Of a stretch of DNA of 64,000 bases, positions 1-59,981 are shown one piece after another. The stretch lies in IMG/VR virus record IMGVR_UViG_3300045049_000234, positions 47,180 through 111,179 of that record, one strand, 5' to 3'. The stretch is from a virus. The position numbers and the translations under genes were made by a program. The stretch's first letter is position 1. Every line of letters begins with the position of its first letter. The notes under the pieces are model-generated. The model was given only the letters and a program-made list of their open reading frames with translations, made no database searches and was not told the DNA's origin.

Positions 1-1593
1 GTCGATCGACGCCTTGGAGTAGCCCGTGGTGTCGATCCCGAACAGCGGCACCGACGCCGGGACCGCGTCGGACACCGACGTGGCGCGCGGCGCGACCAGC
101 CCGGACCGGCGCACGCCGTACCCGCCGCTGTAGTACCCGCCGTACGCGAACGCCTGGCCGTCGGTGACCACGATTACCCGGTCGTGGCCCTTGAACGTGG
201 CCTCGATGGCGCCGATGGTCTGCGTGCCGTGGCCCACCTCGCCGATGCGCTTGGTGAACCGGTCGATCTCGCGCAGCATGCTGCCGCCCAGCGCGATGTC
301 GTGCTGGAACACGCCGTCCGCGTAGCCGTACAGGCTCACTTTGCCGCCGGTGCGGTACGCCAGCGCCACGCCGATCAGCGCGCCGATGTCCACGTGCCGG
401 ATCTGCGACTTGCCAGACACCGGGGACTGCATGGAGCTGGAGGTGTCCACCAGCACCAGCGTGCGCCCGTCCAGGAGCGGGATGTTCGCCGTGGCCGCTG
501 CCAGCGCCTGCTCCAGCGCGTGACCCCACCGCAGCGACGGTGCGGCCTTGTACGCCGACAGGAACCGGTACGGGAACTGCCGAGAGCGCGCCACTTCCGC
601 CGGGTCGGCGATCTTCGCCGCCACCTGCGCCGCGACCTTGTCAGAGACCTTCGCCTCGTCGAAGTTGCGCAGGTTGCGGATCAGCGCCATGTAGCCCATC
701 GACGGGATGATCGCCTCCCACGCGGCGCGGTCCATCGGACCCTGAAGCCAACCGGCCAGGATCTCCCACGTGATGCCCGCGTCGTTCAGACGCTGCGCCC
801 CGCCGTCGGCCAGCAGGACCGCACGGCGCTCCGCCACCGGCAGCGCCATCAGATCGCGGTTCGCGCGCAGGATGCGCAGCGACTCGGGAACGTCCAGCTC
901 CGGCTCGTGCGGCTTGGACACCACGTAGTCGAACAGGTCGTGCTGCCACGGCGCCTTGATGGTCTGCGCGGAGTCGTCGCGGTCGCCCGAGTGCGTCAGG
1001 TCCAGCACGCGGCGCCACGAGAAGCCGGGGTGCGCCACGTCGCCGTACTTGATGAAATTGCGCTCGTTGCCCATGCGGATCATGGCGTCGGCGATACCGC
1101 GCTTGAGCGGCTTGGGCAACGCCATCCCGTAGCGCGACGTCCAGTACGCCAAAAGCTCGCCGGGCTCGTCCGGGCGCTGGAGCGCGTCGCGCACGACGCT
1201 GCGCGCGGAGATGGTCGGCAGCGGGTACTGCGTGCCGGTGCGGCCGGTGCCCATCTCGTCGCGGCGCGCGTGGACGTACTCCGCCGCCGCGACGACCGAC
1301 GCCGAGCGCATCAGGCCCTCGCTGCGAAGCCACTTGATGAACCGCGCGGTCCAGTCGGGGTGCTGGACGGCGCACTGACGCACCAGGTTGCGGAACCGGA
1401 CGTCGCGGTCGCCCGCCTTCTCGTAGAACGTGTCCTCGCCGACCATGTTCGTCACGGCCAGCAGGAACAGATCGGACTGCGGGGTGCGGGTCCACGCGGC
1501 GCCGCCCTCGTGGGTGGTGGTGCGCTCGTCGGTGGTCCGGATGACGCCCGGCGCAGTGGTCTGCTTGCCGAGCTGCTTGGTGAACTTCGCCAC
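1..1593 (-). CDS. rsr: Ro60/Rsr TROVE-domain RNA-binding protein (C-terminal end cut by window)
   Basis: Reading from a GTG preceded by GAGAGGAACCC, 531 residues are visible and the frame is still open at the window edge. The first ~360 residues read as a TROVE/HEAT-like ring domain. A von Willebrand A domain follows, with the MIDAS motif DTSSS near residue 383 and a second acidic motif (VVTDG) further on. Ro60 proteins are rings that bind Y RNAs and misfolded RNA ends; bacterial Rsr works with Y RNA and exoribonucleases such as PNPase. Family length is about 530-540, so little is missing. It lies 49 nt downstream of, and in the same direction as, nine structured RNA units with tRNA-like domains, the expected place for Y RNA partners. 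Family call is from motifs read by eye; function is inferred from the family and context. Confidence 0.9.
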   Translation of the reverse strand, partial: MAKFTKQLGKQTTAPGVIRTTDERTTTHEGGAAWTRTPQSDLFLLAVTNMVGEDTFYEKAGDRDVRFRNLVRQCAVQHPDWTARFIKWLRSEGLMRSASVVAAAEYVHARRDEMGTGRTGTQYPLPTISARSVVRDALQRPDEPGELLAYWTSRYGMALPKPLKRGIADAMIRMGNERNFIKYGDVAHPGFSWRRVLDLTHSGDRDDSAQTIKAPWQHDLFDYVVSKPHEPELDVPESLRILRANRDLMALPVAERRAVLLADGGAQRLNDAGITWEILAGWLQGPMDRAAWEAIIPSMGYMALIRNLRNFDEAKVSDKVAAQVAAKIADPAEVARSRQFPYRFLSAYKAAPSLRWGHALEQALAAATANIPLLDGRTLVLVDTSSSMQSPVSGKSQIRHVDIGALIGVALAYRTGGKVSLYGYADGVFQHDIALGGSMLREIDRFTKRIGEVGHGTQTIGAIEATFKGHDRVIVVTDGQAFAYGGYYSGGYGVRRSGLVAPRATSVSDAVPASVPLFGIDTTGYSKASID

Positions 1594-1642: not shown

Positions 1643-1782
1643 GGTGACCCGAGATTGAAGCGACGGCGGCTGTTTTGACTGATGCTCTACCAAGTGAGCT
1701 ACCGAGGGTAAAGCCCCCCGGATTGGGATCGAACCAATAACCTTCAGTTCCGAAGTATCCGCCATCAGGGCACCGGGTCACC
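1643..1782 (-). ncRNA. Y-RNA-like tRNA-mimic unit 9 (tRNA opened in the anticodon loop)
   Basis: Outer stem GGTGACCCG/CGGGTCACC (9 bp), then GTGCC, inner helix GATGGCGG/CCGCCGTC, then TACTTC. Inside, the tRNA 3' half comes first: anticodon-stem strand ACTGA, T arm with TTCGATC, acceptor strand CCGGGGG. A 6-nt linker follows, then the 5' half: CCCTCGG, D arm, TCAGT. The halves pair correctly only if the tRNA is read as circularly permuted with its opening in the anticodon loop. TTCAATCT precedes the closing outer stem. It cannot act as a normal linear tRNA as written. Last unit before the Ro60 gene. Confidence 0.85.
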
Positions 1783-1790
1783 GGTGCTGG

Positions 1791-1921
1791 ACCTCCCGAG
1801 GTTGGGGTGTGCGGGACTAAGTTGCCTTAGACCATCTCGGCCACACGCGGCGGACCGCGTGACAGGATTCGAACCTGCGTTCGTTTGCACGAAGTAAGTT
1901 CCGCACGGGGCACCGGGAGAT
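1791..1921 (-). ncRNA. Y-RNA-like tRNA-mimic unit 8 (leucine/serine-type tRNA body)
   Basis: Outer stem ATCTCCCG/CGGGAGGT with one G-U pair, GTGCC, inner helix GTGCGG/CCGCAC, TACTTC. The domain holds a short variable-arm-like hairpin (TTCG/CGAA), a T arm with GGTTCGAATCC, acceptor CACGCGG paired with CCGCGTG through a 4-nt linker, and a D arm of the long-variable-arm tRNA type. No anticodon stem-loop can be drawn; the inner helix takes its place. CCAACCT precedes the closing stem. Confidence 0.8.
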
Positions 1922-1956
1922 GCCTTTACTGTCAGTGTTCAGTTGTCAATGGGGTC

Positions 1957-2098
1957 GCGCCCGAGGTTGAGTCGGTGATCGTTGTTCTCTGTTGTGCTGC
2001 CGTTACACCACACGCCCCAGGTGGGGGGCGCGCCGGATTCGAACCGGACCTCCGGTTCCCTAGACCGGTGAAGTAACGATCTCCTTGGCACCGGGCGC
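1957..2098 (-). ncRNA. Y-RNA-like tRNA-mimic unit 7 (proline-type anticodon arm)
   Basis: Outer stem GCGCCCG/CGGGCGC (7 bp), GTGCC, inner helix GATCGTT/AACGATC extended by GG/CC, then ACTTC. The 3' part contains a full anticodon arm CCGGT-CTAGGGA-ACCGG, whose loop is of the proline type (AGG at 34-36). A T arm with TTCGAAT and acceptor GCGCCCC follow. A 6-nt linker joins acceptor GGGGCGT and a D arm. The order is permuted, opened between D arm and anticodon arm. Confidence 0.82.
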
Positions 2099-2112
2099 GA
2101 TGTCTGTGGGCC

Positions 2113-2253
2113 GTGTCCGAGATTGAGGTCGGACGATCGTGACGTTAGGTGCTCTGGGCCACTGAGCCACAGGGGACACAGTCCCCCGCCGGGATTCGAA
2201 CCCGGGTCACCCGCTTAAGAGGCGAAGTAACGATCATCCTGGGCACCGGACAC
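2113..2253 (-). ncRNA. Y-RNA-like tRNA-mimic unit 6 (lysine-type anticodon arm)
   Basis: Outer stem GTGTCCG/CGGACAC, a different sequence from its neighbours but still fully paired. GTGCC and inner helix GGATGATCGT/ACGATCGTCC (10 bp, one G-U) follow, then TACTTC. The anticodon arm is TTCGC-CTCTTAA-GCGGG; the loop is the canonical lysine CTT loop. The T arm (CCGGG, TTCGAAT, CCCGG) and acceptor CGGGGGA come before a 5-nt linker, then acceptor TCCCCTG and D arm GCTC/GAGC. Permuted order, opened between D arm and anticodon arm. Confidence 0.87.
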
Positions 2254-2267
2254 GGCATCCGTTTAGT

Positions 2268-2412
2268 CCACCCCGAGGTTGAATCAGAGACCGGTATTCT
2301 TAAAGAAGGACTCGAACCTTCACCTCCGGCTTTTCAAAGCCAGCGTGCTGCCAATTACACCACTCGGCCATGAGTGGCCGAGGAAGTATCGGTATCAATG
2401 GCACCGGGATGG
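2268..2412 (-). ncRNA. Y-RNA-like tRNA-mimic unit 5 (glutamine-type, opened at the T-stem/acceptor junction)
   Basis: Outer stem CCATCCCG/CGGGGTGG with a G-U pair, GTGCC, inner helix GATACCG/CGGTCTC with one mismatch, TACTTC. The acceptor 3' strand TCGGCCA comes first, then a CTCA linker, acceptor 5' strand TGGCCGA, D arm, anticodon arm carrying the glutamine loop CTTTGAA, and T arm with TTCGAGT. Three extra bases after the anticodon loop enlarge it or let it re-pair into GGCTT/AAGCC. The breakpoint differs from units 6, 7 and 9. Confidence 0.82.
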
Positions 2413-2421
2413 ATGCCTGGC

Positions 2422-2533
2422 CCCTCCCGAGATTGAGGTGGCCGACGGAGAACGGGACTTGAACCCGCAGCGTTTCCTTGGAAGGGAAATTTCGAACCAT
2501 TCGAAGTAACCGTAGACCTGGGCACCGGGAGGG
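2422..2533 (-). ncRNA. Y-RNA-like tRNA-mimic unit 4 (glycine TCC tRNA in normal order)
   Basis: Outer stem CCCTCCCG/CGGGAGGG (8 bp), GTGCC, inner helix GGTCTACGG/CCGTCGGCC. Inside is a tRNA in natural order: D-like arm, anticodon arm TTTCC-CTTCCAA-GGAAA (glycine TCC loop), and T arm GCGGG-TTCAAGT-CCCGT. The acceptor stem is replaced by, or merged with, the inner helix, so the ends are not free to be charged. Confidence 0.8.
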
Positions 2534-2542
2534 AATTCTATG

Positions 2543-2621
2543 GTGTCCCCGAGATTGAAAGCGGCGGCCGGTGTGTTTCCATTTGGAGTGAAGTAACCGA
2601 TTGCCTGGGCACCGGGGACAC
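2543..2621 (-). ncRNA. Y-RNA-like unit 3 (minimal; isolated tryptophan-type anticodon stem-loop)
   Basis: Only 79 nt. Outer stem GTGTCCCCG/CGGGGACAC (9 bp), GTGCC, inner helix GGCAATCGG/CCGGCCGCC with two mismatches, TACTTC, TTTCAATCT. The insert is a single weak stem-loop with loop CTCCAAA, the canonical tryptophan CCA anticodon loop, flanked by TTCA/TGGA. There is no D arm, T arm or acceptor. Confidence 0.75.
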
Positions 2622-2627
2622 GTACGC

Positions 2628-2750
2628 GGCATTCCCGAGGTTCACGGTGGATCGACGACGGGGGTTCTCCGTCCCCACGCTCCGCGTGAGGGTTCCCCCT
2701 ATGGTGCACTGGTGGAGGAAGTATCGCCGGTCCGAGGCACCGGGAATGCC
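2628..2750 (-). ncRNA. Y-RNA-like unit 2 (branched insert without a T loop)
   Basis: Outer stem GGCATTCCCG/CGGGAATGCC (10 bp), GTGCC, inner helix GGACCGGCGA/TCGTCGATCC with one mismatch, TACTTC, GTGAACCT. The insert of about 58 nt has a GC hairpin (CACGC/GCGTG) inside a GGGGG/CCCCC helix, but no recognisable T loop or anticodon loop. Same scaffold, different cargo. Confidence 0.72.
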
Positions 2751-2774
2751 CACTGTTCAGTTATCAAGAAGCGC

Positions 2775-2854
2775 GTCCCCGAGATTAAGGGCGACGTCCG
2801 GAACGGGATTCAAATTTACAGTTTGAAGTAGCCGGTCGTCTGGGCACCGGGGAC
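2775..2854 (-). ncRNA. Y-RNA-like unit 1 (minimal; isolated tyrosine-type anticodon stem-loop)
   Basis: First unit after the promoter, 80 nt. Outer stem GTCCCCG/CGGGGAC, GTGCC, inner helix GACGACCGG/CCGGACGTC with one mismatch, TACTTC, TTAATCT. The insert is a perfect hairpin TTCAAA-CTGTAAA-TTTGAA. Its loop is the canonical tyrosine GTA anticodon loop. No other tRNA arm is present. Confidence 0.75.
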
Positions 2855-2902
2855 AAAGTCGGTGCGTTTCGGCGGGGGTTGGGTTCCCGTTTCAACACGC
2901 AT

Positions 2903-2939: not shown

Positions 2940-3458
2940 TTAGCCGCGCGCCGCGATGTCGGCGAACATGCGCACGCTGTCCACGATGTCGTCCGTCAGC
3001 CCCGTCGCCGGGTCCGCCGTGATCAGCAGCGTGGGCGCGGTGTGCGCCGTGCGCCGGTTGCCGCGCGTGAGCATGCCCATGGTGAACCCGTCGTCGATCC
3101 ACGCGAACGGCCGGATGCCCGCGTACTGCAACACGTGATCCCACTTCCATTCGGCGGTCACGTCGTACTCGGAGAACCGGCGATTCATCGGCGCCACCGG
3201 CATCGGGTCCAGCCCGATCAGCGGCGCCAGGTGGGTGTTCGCGCGGTCGTTCCACGTGGTCGCCCACACGTGTTCCACGATGTCGTCCAGCGACCGCACG
3301 CGCTTGACGTCGCCGGGGTCCAGCACGAGCGGCACCGGGCGCGGCATGCCGGGCAGGTCGATCGTGTGGCGCAGCCACTCGCCGCCGGTCACGTTCTGGA
3401 GCGGGTAGCGGTTGAACACCCCGTCCACATCCCAGAACAGCAGCGGCTTGCCGGTCAC
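2940..3458 (-). CDS. HAD-superfamily protein of the 'Swiss army knife' RNA-repair type
   Basis: 172 residues from a GTG that overlaps the upstream stop (GTGA). The HAD nucleophile motif DVDGV is at residues 10-14. The conserved stretch HVWATTWNDRAN in mid-protein and WIDD later match the HAD domain that Pfam names after Swiss-army-knife RNA-repair proteins, common in actinobacteria. HAD enzymes of this kind are predicted to remove terminal phosphates from nucleic acids. It is translationally coupled to the vWA protein and lies just upstream of the RNA array and Ro60, which supports a role in RNA end processing; that role is inference. Confidence 0.75.
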   Translation of the reverse strand: MTGKPLLFWDVDGVFNRYPLQNVTGGEWLRHTIDLPGMPRPVPLVLDPGDVKRVRSLDDIVEHVWATTWNDRANTHLAPLIGLDPMPVAPMNRRFSEYDVTAEWKWDHVLQYAGIRPFAWIDDGFTMGMLTRGNRRTAHTAPTLLITADPATGLTDDIVDSVRMFADIAARG

Positions 3459-4504
3459 CGCGCCTCGGCCGGGATGATCAGCAGCTTGTCGCCGTCGTAC
3501 ATCTTGCGGTTCACAGACGTGGACTGCACGAAGATCGTGTACTCCGGGTTGATGTCCGGGCTCACCCGCGTGTCGATGTCCGGCAGCCCCAGGATGTCCC
3601 GCGCGCCGTCGCCGACGTACACGACGCCGGTCTTCTTCTCGTGGACGGCGATGCGCTTGGTGCGCTGGATCGTGACACGGCGCTTGAGTTCGTAGAAGGC
3701 CGCGCCGATCCGGTAGTCCATGCGCAACTGATCCACAACCCAGTCACGGATCTCCGCGTCCTCGGTCACCGTGGTCAGCGTGTAGGCGCTGCCAGGCAGC
3801 GGGGTGAGCGTGGAACGTACGGTGTCCCGGTTGACGGCGTCGATGCCGGTGGAGAAGATCGCCCGGCTGCCGCGCACGCCCTGCGCCCGGTTCGCCATGA
3901 ACCGGTCGGTGGCGGCGCGGATCGTGTTGCCGACCTCCCGCACACCGTGCGCGGACGTGGTGTCCCACACGGCGATGTTGTCGGCGGCGAACCCGAACCG
4001 CTTGGCCTCGAACACGCCCATCTGGTTCGGCACCATCACGGCCACCGTCCAGTTGTCCGGCAGTGCGCGCAGCCGCGCGGACAGGTGCGCGGAGGTGTGG
4101 ATGCGGCTGCGGTTCTCCTCGCCGTCGGTGATCACGTAGACCAGGAACGCATGGTCGCCGTAGATCTCCGGCGTCTTGGCCAGATCATCCAGCGCCGTCA
4201 TGGTCGCGTCGATCAGCGCCGTGTTGCGCTCGGCGCGGTAGTGCTCCGCGATCGAAGGCAGGCGCAGCACGTCCCGATCGTAGAACACGCATTCGGCGGC
4301 CTGTTTGACGCCGGGCACGGCCTCGTTGAACACGTAGACCGTCGCCCGCGTCTCCTGGTCCATCACAGTGGACCGTTCGGCCAGGTGGGACACCATGCCA
4401 TCCGTGACGGCCACCACGTCGCGGGCGAACCGGGACATGGACAGCGAGCCGTCCAGCACGATGGCGATGTGGTTGATGTAGCCCTGTGTGGGGTGTTTGT
4501 TCAT
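3455..4504 (-). CDS. von Willebrand factor A domain protein
   Basis: 349 residues. The N-terminal ~210 residues form a vWA domain. The metal-site motif DGSLSMS is near residue 18, and VITDGEENRS near residue 130 is the second acidic element. The C-terminal part is basic and ends in a small beta-rich segment (YTIFVQSTS). The same fold forms the C-terminal half of Ro60, so two vWA proteins flank the RNA array. Start ATG follows AAAGGAACCC. Overlap with the HAD gene by 4 nt implies coupled translation. The ligand is unknown. Confidence 0.75.
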   Translation of the reverse strand: MNKHPTQGYINHIAIVLDGSLSMSRFARDVVAVTDGMVSHLAERSTVMDQETRATVYVFNEAVPGVKQAAECVFYDRDVLRLPSIAEHYRAERNTALIDATMTALDDLAKTPEIYGDHAFLVYVITDGEENRSRIHTSAHLSARLRALPDNWTVAVMVPNQMGVFEAKRFGFAADNIAVWDTTSAHGVREVGNTIRAATDRFMANRAQGVRGSRAIFSTGIDAVNRDTVRSTLTPLPGSAYTLTTVTEDAEIRDWVVDQLRMDYRIGAAFYELKRRVTIQRTKRIAVHEKKTGVVYVGDGARDILGLPDIDTRVSPDINPEYTIFVQSTSVNRKMYDGDKLLIIPAEAR

Positions 4505-59002: not shown

Positions 59003-59094
59003 GATGGGTCCTCCGTTCACGTGTCAGCGCCCCCGGCAAGGTCATCCGATTACCGACCGGGGGCGCCGTGATGCGCGGTTTCCGTCACGCATCG

Positions 59095-59168
59095 CACCGG
59101 CGGCAGGACTCGAACCTGCGACTCTGAGATTCGTAATCTCAAGCTCTTTCCAGCTGAGCTACGCCGGT
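59095..59168 (-). tRNA. tRNA-Arg(ACG)
   Basis: Acceptor ACCGGCG/CGCCGGT, D arm GCTC/GAGC, anticodon arm TGAGA-TTACGAA-TCTCA, T arm GCAGG-TTCGAGT-CCTGC, discriminator G. No encoded CCA. Confidence 0.93.
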
Positions 59169-59286
59169 TAGCGGCGGGATGCTTCTTCCGGACGAACCGA
59201 CGCTCACGCGAGGACCCGCCTGCAACCCGCCTGCCACACGCGGCACCGGCTTCCAGGGGCAGCCGTACTGGTGCGTTGCGTGGTCG

Positions 59287-59360
59287 TCGCCCCGAGTGGA
59301 ATTGAACCACCGGCCTTTCCCTTATCAGGGGAACGCTCTGACCAACTGAGCTACGGGGCA
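59287..59360 (-). tRNA. tRNA-Ile(GAT)
   Basis: Acceptor TGCCCCG/CGGGGCG (U-G first pair), D arm GCTC/GAGC, anticodon arm TTCCC-CTGATAA-GGGAA, T arm GGTGG-TTCAATT-CCACT. No encoded CCA. The 118 nt to tRNA-Arg hold no convincing gene. Confidence 0.93.
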
Positions 59361-59468
59361 TTGCGGGTGCGCTTTCGAAACAACGAGGTGCGCACCGCTG
59401 ACGCGGGAGGACTGCCATCCTGCCCCGCGCCCCGAGACGAGCGCTGGCAGGCGCCTGTCTCTACCTCG

Positions 59469-59540
59469 CTCCCGATCGAGGATTCGAACCTCGTATGCCG
59501 CGTCCAGAGCGCGGCGTGTTGCCGATTACACCAACCGGGA
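59469..59540 (-). tRNA. tRNA-Gln(CTG)
   Basis: Acceptor TCCCGGT/ATCGGGA, anticodon arm CCGCG-CTCTGGA-CGCGG, T arm CGAGG-TTCGAAT-CCTCG. No encoded CCA. The gap to tRNA-Ile (108 nt) shows no convincing gene. Confidence 0.9.
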
Positions 59541-59640
59541 TCGGTTGTCCTACACGTCCTGTTTCACCCACCGGCCGTTGTGGCGGACCTCCACCACCAC
59601 GTCCGGCGAACCGCCCACGGGCCAAGAGGCGGCGGTGCCC

Positions 59641-59771
59641 TAGTGGAACCGGGGGGAGTCGAACCCCGTGCGCGCGCTCGTGGCTACCCGCCACGGCCGA
59701 TCCCATGGTGGTCGGTCTTTCAGCGCACACGTGCCCGGGACGCGTCCGGGTTTGGTGCCGACCAAGCGCCG
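59641..59771 (-). other. Orphan T arm / tRNA remnant
   Basis: GGGG-TTCGACT-CCCC followed by CCGGTTCCACT has the look of a tRNA or tmRNA 3' end. GTGGC-GGGTA-GCCAC just before it could be a variable arm. No complementary 5' acceptor strand (GGAACCGG type) is found up to tRNA-Val, so it cannot fold as a complete tRNA. The next 100 nt toward tRNA-Gln may encode a 22-residue peptide from a GTG ending GRWVKQDV. Confidence 0.4.
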
Positions 59772-59844
59772 TAGGCCCACGAGGACTCGAACCTCGAACC
59801 CGCTGCTTGTAAGGCAGCCGCTCTCCCAATTGAGCTATAGGCCC
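59772..59844 (-). tRNA. tRNA-Val(TAC)
   Basis: Acceptor GGGCCTA/TGGGCCT, D arm GCTC/GAGC, anticodon arm GCTGC-CTTACAA-GCAGC, T arm CGAGG-TTCGAGT-CCTCG. No encoded CCA. Confidence 0.92.
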
Positions 59845-59908
59845 AGGTCACCGGACACAGCCATGGCCTAACGCCGGTGCCTTAGTCGTGAAGTTGTCAA
59901 ACAGTCAG

Positions 59909-59981
59909 TTGCGGAGACGGGAGTCGAACCCGCAAATGCAAGGGTTATGAGCCCTCCGGCTTACCGTTGGCCTACTCCGCG
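59909..59981 (-). tRNA. tRNA-Met(CAT), initiator-like
   Basis: Acceptor CGCGGAG/CTCCGCA with an unpaired C1-A72, anticodon arm GAGGG-CTCATAA-CCCTT with three G-C pairs next to the loop, T arm GCGGG-TTCGACT-CCCGT. Both features mark bacterial initiator tRNA. D arm GGC/GCC. No encoded CCA. Confidence 0.88.

Follow-up and report, generated by a model that had tools for sequence, protein, structure and literature searches.

Bacterial YrlA RNAs are represented in Rfam by RF02553 and in the structural record by 6CU1, the crystal structure of Salmonella YrlA. The YrlA module has been described as resembling the D, T and acceptor arms (reviewed in PMC8394870), and in D. radiodurans and Salmonella a Y RNA tethers Ro60/Rsr to PNPase (PMC7790460, PMC8394870). 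Y RNAs of phages were reported earlier (Chen et al., 2014, as cited in PMC12282133). Both phage-encoded Y RNAs and the imitation of tRNA by YrlA are thus in the literature already; the new element here is the cargo. Literature joining a permuted tRNA with a Y RNA was not found, and as the primary Y RNA papers were incompletely covered, priority is uncertain. The analysis addresses an open question, the reason for which bacterial Y RNAs imitate tRNAs.

Position and scaffold of the array

The window is a stretch of 64,000 nt that forms part of a virus record of 111,179 bases (IMGVR_UViG_3300045049_000234), with negligible DNA similarity to known phages. Nine structured RNAs (U1 to U9) lie in tandem at positions 1643-2855 on its minus strand, directly upstream of a phage Ro60 gene. 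The gene (TROVE and VWA domains, 572 aa; 1..1593, minus strand; L009:7055-8773) has a GTG start at about position 1593, 50 nt downstream of the array, and leaves the window at its left end, so that its 3' end lies beyond. Its product was matched by TROVE (E=9e-15), by the PHROG 'RNA-binding protein' (E=1e-45) and, in profile searches, by D. radiodurans Rsr (2nvo) and Xenopus Ro (1yvp). The AlphaFold model (mean pLDDT 78, pTM 0.72) has the TROVE ring and the VWA fold, and its best Foldseek matches were all Ro60 structures (E about 1e-12), including the Ro60 of Thermus phage phiLo. The TROVE, PHROG, profile and predicted-fold matches agree with one another and confirm the phage Ro60 gene that an earlier note on this DNA had placed beside the array. 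By Ro60, the closest isolated phages are Streptomyces, Gordonia and Arthrobacter phages (about 35-40% identity).

At about 1597-1633 of the window, inspection by eye revealed an inverted repeat, GGTTCCTC...GAGGAACC, which extends over the region of the Ro60 start and may mask the ribosome-binding site of the gene. Just upstream of the array is a HAD domain gene of the 'Swiss Army Knife RNA repair proteins' (PF18143, E=8e-7; 2940..3458, minus strand), and the gene next after it (3455-4504) matches PHROG 26613, of unknown function. RNA_ligase (PF09414) and RtcB (PF01139) had no match in the 111-kb record, which is possibly a fragment; a phage tRNA-repair set was set aside for this reason, though the RNA-repair-type HAD gene adjoins the array. 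Five ordinary tRNA genes (Arg, Ile, Gln, Val and Met) are clustered at 59094-59981 on the minus strand. A consensus scan of the array region gave no promoter and no terminator.

The nine minus-strand units had been described as built on one shared scaffold, and this was borne out: CCG-GTGCC, TACTTC and CGG are common to 9/9 units, in the order outer stem, CCG, GTGCC, inner helix, TACTTC, insert, inner helix, YAAYCT and CGG. The 3' element, previously given as YAAYCT in every unit, has this form in eight of the nine and reads GAACCT in U2. The outer stems differ and each pairs fully, as had been stated. The 5' and 3' ends of all nine units form a stem with 8/8 pairs between their own arms; arms swapped between units gave a mean of 5.6/8 pairs, mostly because CCCG is shared, and reached 8/8 in 3/72 cross-combinations.

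Covariation was scored in an alignment of 64 units (the nine of the window and 55 from other phages). In the outer helix, 94.7% of cells are paired, a value that partly reflects selection, since a pairing outer stem was a condition for including a unit. In the inner helix, which played no part in this choice, 58% of cells are paired, with two-sided changes at 7/8 pairs. For the whole structure the covariation score was 0.51, compared with 0.13-0.23 for slid structures, which upholds the earlier reading of covariation as a sign of selected structure. Energy z-scores of the window units were between -1.5 and -4.4.

Cargo of the units and spread of related arrays

All units are on the minus strand. 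The short units U1 (2774..2855) and U3 (2543..2621) were matched by the scaffold covariance model at E=5e-7 and E=1e-7, respectively, both being members of its training set. U1 is a short Y RNA without a tRNA body and bears an anticodon stem-loop of the Tyr GTA type (2809-2827, TTCAAA[CTGTAAA]TTTGAA). In U3, an anticodon stem-loop of the Trp CCA type (2578-2592, TTCA[CTCCAAA]TGGA) was obtained from a pattern test; the lowest-energy fold of the unit has another small hairpin instead. U2 (2628..2750) has the Y RNA scaffold with a non-tRNA hairpin as its insert.

U4 (2421..2534) is a Y RNA that contains a tRNA with its parts in the normal order (RF00005, 32.2 bits; 2444-2513) and an anticodon arm of the Gly TCC type (2473-2489, TTTCC[CTTCCAA]GGAAA). 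The inner Y helix and the acceptor stem of this tRNA are fused, and free 5' and 3' acceptor ends are lacking. In U5 (2267..2413) the D, anticodon and T arms also follow one another as in an ordinary tRNA, and there is an extra hairpin (RF00005, 36.7 bits at 2303-2364; Gln/Glu-like by eye). A search of 12 related phage loci with Rfam gave no in-order tRNA of the kind seen in U4 and U5 within their arrays.

U6 (2110..2256) carries a circularly permuted tRNA-Lys(CTT): the anticodon arm (2210-2226, TTCGC[CTCTTAA]GCGGG) is followed by the T arm, a closed acceptor hairpin and the D arm, all arms are present in the lowest-energy fold, and ARAGORN returned tRNA-Lys(ctt) after de-permutation (described below). 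The unit also has a partial YrlA match (E=5e-4, Rfam). U7 (1955..2100) is likewise a Y RNA whose cargo is a circularly permuted tRNA, for which ARAGORN gave Pro(AGG) after de-permutation; its anticodon arm (2052-2068, CCGGT[CTAGGGA]ACCGG) is absent from the lowest-energy fold. The body of U8 (1791..1921) is tRNA-like and permuted (T arm, closed acceptor, D arm) and was judged by eye to be Cys-like; the unit has a weak and partial YrlA match (Rfam) and a first hairpin, TTCGT[GCAA]ACGAA, that is not a canonical anticodon arm. U9 (1643..1782) is the most canonical YrlA-like unit, with inner helix, anticodon-stem helix, T arm, closed acceptor and D arm, and matches the full length of RF02553 (45.7 bits, E=1.2e-8). 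U8 and U9 are without a canonical anticodon loop and gave no stable tRNA call with ARAGORN after de-permutation.

With RNAfold, U6 adopted its complete architecture and U4 and U1 showed their arms; the lowest-energy folds of U3, U5 and U7 are without the arms read from the sequence. The array is thus mixed, a point absent from the earlier note: four units have permuted bodies (U6-U9), two have normal-order tRNA parts (U4 and U5), and three are without a whole tRNA, namely U1 and U3 with bare anticodon stem-loops and U2 with its other hairpin. Rfam matches in the array to H19_2, Vault, mascRNA and PyrR206 were weak and were judged to be chance.

From sequence and neighbourhood, the array is classed as Y RNAs beside a phage Ro60. 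It lies at a spacing of 50 nt from the gene, as a bacterial Y RNA beside a Ro60/rsr gene, and the order T arm, acceptor-like hairpin, D arm is present in U6-U9 (by de-permutation for U6 and U7, by the YrlA model for U9 and by the fold for U8), not in U1-U5. YrlA as described is without an anticodon arm; such arms occur in U6, U7 and many related units. The likeness to YrlA put forward earlier stood as a full-length match for U9 and partial matches for U6 and U8, and remained below the gathering score of 69 bits (best 45.7 bits), which was reached in 0/12 related phage loci.

A scaffold covariance model trained only on phage units was applied to 80 actinobacterial chromosome loci and gave more than 80 matches (E<=0.01), all of them a short way before Ro60 and on the same strand; the units recur at this place in many phages and in most of the 80 chromosomes. 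With the YrlA match of U9 (E=1.2e-8), these matches sustain the view of a phage Y RNA array in which several copies share a scaffold and differ in cargo. The tandem arrangement itself, regarded in the earlier note as something special, proved common. Comparable units, usually two to seven in tandem, precede Ro60 in other actinophages, in most of the 80 actinobacterial chromosomal loci and in phages of Xanthomonas, Caulobacter and Brevundimonas. The anchors per chain before Ro60 are mostly two to five in bacteria and actinophages and up to seven in Caulobacter-type phages, counts that are approximate because anchors were located by a short motif. Tandem Y RNA arrays upstream of Ro60 are the general rule, and the nine units of the window form the largest array in the sample.

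Several side observations were made in the related loci. In Caulobacter-type giant phages including CcrPW (L144, L146, L209 and L210), Ro60 is preceded by seven TACTTC units in tandem, and anticodon arms and T arms are present in several of these units. In the spacers of phage loci, the hexamer ACAACT follows units in 17/87 stretches, with 0.6 expected, and is a possible processing or transcription signal. Annotated tRNAs overlie Y RNA units in phages GiJojo (L041 5769-5843), VanLee (L044 5650-5721), Alone3 (L045 5774-5847), Frankenweenie (L048 5745-5835), Gurke (L130 2284-2358) and 10KY502B (L131 2295-2362); these annotations, directly upstream of Ro60, are probably mis-annotated Y RNAs. A tRNA-Leu annotated upstream of Ro60 in Microcystis phage Mvi-JY20 (L133 2373-2457), where there is no TACTTC unit, may be a true tRNA. 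Downstream of Ro60 in Brevundimonas phage Gurke (L130 5876-6081), Rfam gave a permuted tmRNA match (50.1 bits).

Anticodon arms and arm order

In many units, the hairpin starting at TACTTC has the form UUCnn-[7-nt loop]-nnGAA. Hairpins with a 7-nt loop and Y32, U33 and R37 were counted and compared with shuffles. They were present in 3/9 window units (0.04 expected), 23/117 phage units (0.8 expected) and 83/216 bacterial units (1.2 expected), counts that overstate the evidence because related sequences are not independent. U33, on which this set was not selected, was found in 108/117 hairpins with a stem of at least four pairs. Base 37 depended on base 36 (U36-A37 46/52, A36-A37 12/16, C36-A37 19/23 and G36-G37 14/17), which is the pattern of real tRNAs. 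A second set, of Proteobacteria-type phages, contained 35 T-arm units with a U33 hairpin (1.3 expected). The conserved UACUUC is accordingly read, on these loop features, as the beginning of an anticodon stem-loop with a 7-nt loop, U33 and a tRNA-like 36/37 dependence, a point absent from the earlier note. Loops with U36-A37 (CUNNUAA) are over-represented, being about half in actinobacteria and phages and 24/35 in the second phage set.

Many long units have the anticodon arm first, then the T arm, a closed acceptor hairpin and the D arm, and are tRNAs opened between positions 26 and 27 and sealed at the acceptor end. For the de-permutation test, the segments were rejoined in tRNA order and submitted to ARAGORN over many possible cuts; a unit was called a tRNA when one anticodon was dominant with 20 or more joins. 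By this measure 142/295 de-permuted units were called tRNA, compared with 1 in shuffles. The calls were 2/5 in the window, 23/58 in the phage set, 71/123 in the bacterial set and 46/109 in the further phage set; controls of the same four sets gave 0, 0, 1 and 0 when shuffled and 0, 0, 0 and 1 in genomic order. The anticodon assigned by ARAGORN was that of the independently read hairpin in 96/97 units (1/1, 14/14, 49/50 and 32/32 in the same order of sets). Closed acceptor hairpins are the rule among T-arm units (177/186); the loop measures 3-4 nt in 118 and contains CCA in 18/177 closed units. The intervening segment of a permuted tRNA gene, with CCA and processing sites, was not found.

Changes of the anticodon were counted by parsimony on the Ro60 gene tree for 32 orthologous first units of Streptomyces and Kitasatospora. 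Position 34 changed 8 times, 35 changed 5 times, 36 and 37 changed 3 times each, and 32, 33 and 38 changed 0-1 times; as reference, third codon positions of Ro60 had a mean of 4.35 changes and the open loops of the unit up to 12. The loop thus keeps its frame, with an anticodon that is either free to change or diversifying, which counts against decoding. Diversifying selection was considered as the cause of the hypervariability and rejected, positions 34 and 35 being unconstrained but not faster than neutral-looking sites. The drift of the anticodon is compatible with decoys, with recognition by modification enzymes and with neutrality.

Possible roles and relation to known systems

Each unit has an outer helix that varies, a conserved segment presumed to bind Ro60, an inner helix and its own cargo, and in U6 and U7 the anticodon arm precedes the YrlA-order body to give a whole permuted tRNA. 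We consider it fairly probable that the phage Ro60 and its Y RNAs form a module in which the RNAs, held on Ro60, present varied tRNA mimics to tRNA-binding proteins. The array would be transcribed and then cut into single Y RNAs, each of which would bind the phage Ro60 through its stem. The tRNA-mimic face would recruit or occupy tRNA-binding proteins, and one Ro60 would in this way carry a set of different tRNA look-alikes during infection. By analogy with the Ro60-Y RNA-PNPase machine (RYPER), host PNPase is the most likely partner of the window units; since Y RNAs tether Ro60/Rsr to PNPase in D. radiodurans and Salmonella, recruitment of PNPase or of another tRNA-binding protein would be the most economical reading. 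Points that count against this reading are U2, which is not tRNA-like, the failure of U8 and U9 to give a stable tRNA call, the lowest-energy folds of U3, U5 and U7, the negative promoter and terminator scan of the array region, and the distant relationship of the bacteria from which PNPase is adopted as partner.

The most interesting alternative to this recruitment is that the units may be multiplexed decoys, Ro60-held anticodon stem-loops that absorb or survive host anti-phage anticodon nucleases and so spare the real tRNAs. The idea that YrlA may competitively inhibit an anticodon nuclease is that of Hughes et al. (2020; PMC7790460), who did not observe cleavage of YrlA. The anticodon loops are real and differ between units of one array, and the acceptor ends are closed, so that the anticodon arm is unfit for decoding as it stands. 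In the Streptomyces-type orthologues, the changes at 34 and 35 stand out from those at 32, 33 and 38; their rates are, however, about those of third codon positions and open loops, and several units have no anticodon arm. We hold the decoy explanation to be possible and rather doubtful. Slightly more doubtful is its fuller form, in which the Ro60 of phages and bacteria would display sets of sealed permuted tRNAs with interchangeable anticodons as anticodon-nuclease decoys and each array would be a record of the attacked tRNAs.

The units could also occupy tRNA-modifying enzymes, their T and D loops being suited to TruB and Dus enzymes. Loops of the class CUNNUAA have the U36-A37 features of t6A formation, for which positions 34 and 35 are irrelevant. 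Loops with C32-U36-A37-A38 make up 44/108 of the U33 hairpins, and the free variation of 34 and 35 beside nearly fixed 32, 33 and 38 points the same way; YrlA is a reported substrate of DusA and TruB (PMC8394870). Other units have G36-G37 or C36-A37, however, and a substrate need not equal a sink, and we regard this role as unlikely.

Other readings are weaker still. It is very unlikely that the array is mainly a cis-acting leader regulating the Ro60 mRNA: it is always upstream of Ro60 and on the same strand, and the inverted repeat over the Ro60 start region would suit such a leader, but terminator-like hairpins were seen by eye between the last unit and Ro60 in several related loci, and separate closed units with different cargo fit trans-acting RNAs better. 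Hardly more credible, and if anything less so, is that the units are permuted tRNA genes yielding working tRNAs by cleavage of the acceptor loop and ligation of 26 to 27, as in algae and archaea. The intron-like permutation site and the complete cloverleaf would agree with it; against it are the short units without a body, the drift of the anticodon on an otherwise conserved body and the absence of RNA_ligase and RtcB family matches from the possibly fragmentary 111-kb record, and functional permuted tRNA genes were set aside on the short acceptor loops and the rarity of CCA. That the array is a decayed tRNA cluster of functionless pseudogenes, as the truncated look of some units might suggest, has next to no probability in view of the compensatory changes, the scaffold kept across phyla, the permuted order and the constant synteny with Ro60.

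The same arrangement in many phages and actinobacteria suggests a general mode of protein-displayed tRNA look-alikes. Complete anticodon arms with a free anticodon and kept U33 and loop flanks, in phages of Actinobacteria and Proteobacteria, make the question of tRNA imitation directly testable, and named cultured phages are at hand for such tests (BRock, GiJojo, Alone3, Quantum, VanLee, Xanthomonas 10KY502B and Caulobacter CcrPW). For deposited phage genomes, several tRNA annotations directly upstream of Ro60 probably stand for Y RNAs.

Among known systems, YrlA is like the window units in its basal stem, in the order T arm, acceptor-like hairpin, D arm and in its Ro60/rsr neighbour. Unlike YrlA as described, many of the present units add a real anticodon arm, and the window array comprises nine copies in tandem whose cargoes differ and in part consist of normal-order tRNA pieces. 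YrlB-type and other short bacterial Y RNAs are Ro60-linked and without a tRNA body, like U1 and U3, whereas the short units here end in an anticodon-like hairpin. Y RNAs of mycobacteriophages and other phages (Chen et al., 2014; the Listeria phage CKA15 candidates, PMC12282133) are likewise near a phage Ro60. tmRNA is a tRNA-mimic RNA with known permuted forms, as here, whereas the present units have no mRNA-like domain and are tied to Ro60. In the permuted tRNA genes of red algae and archaea the 3' half precedes the 5' half, as it does here; the units of the array differ from them in having a closed acceptor loop, mostly no CCA, and a place inside a Y RNA scaffold.
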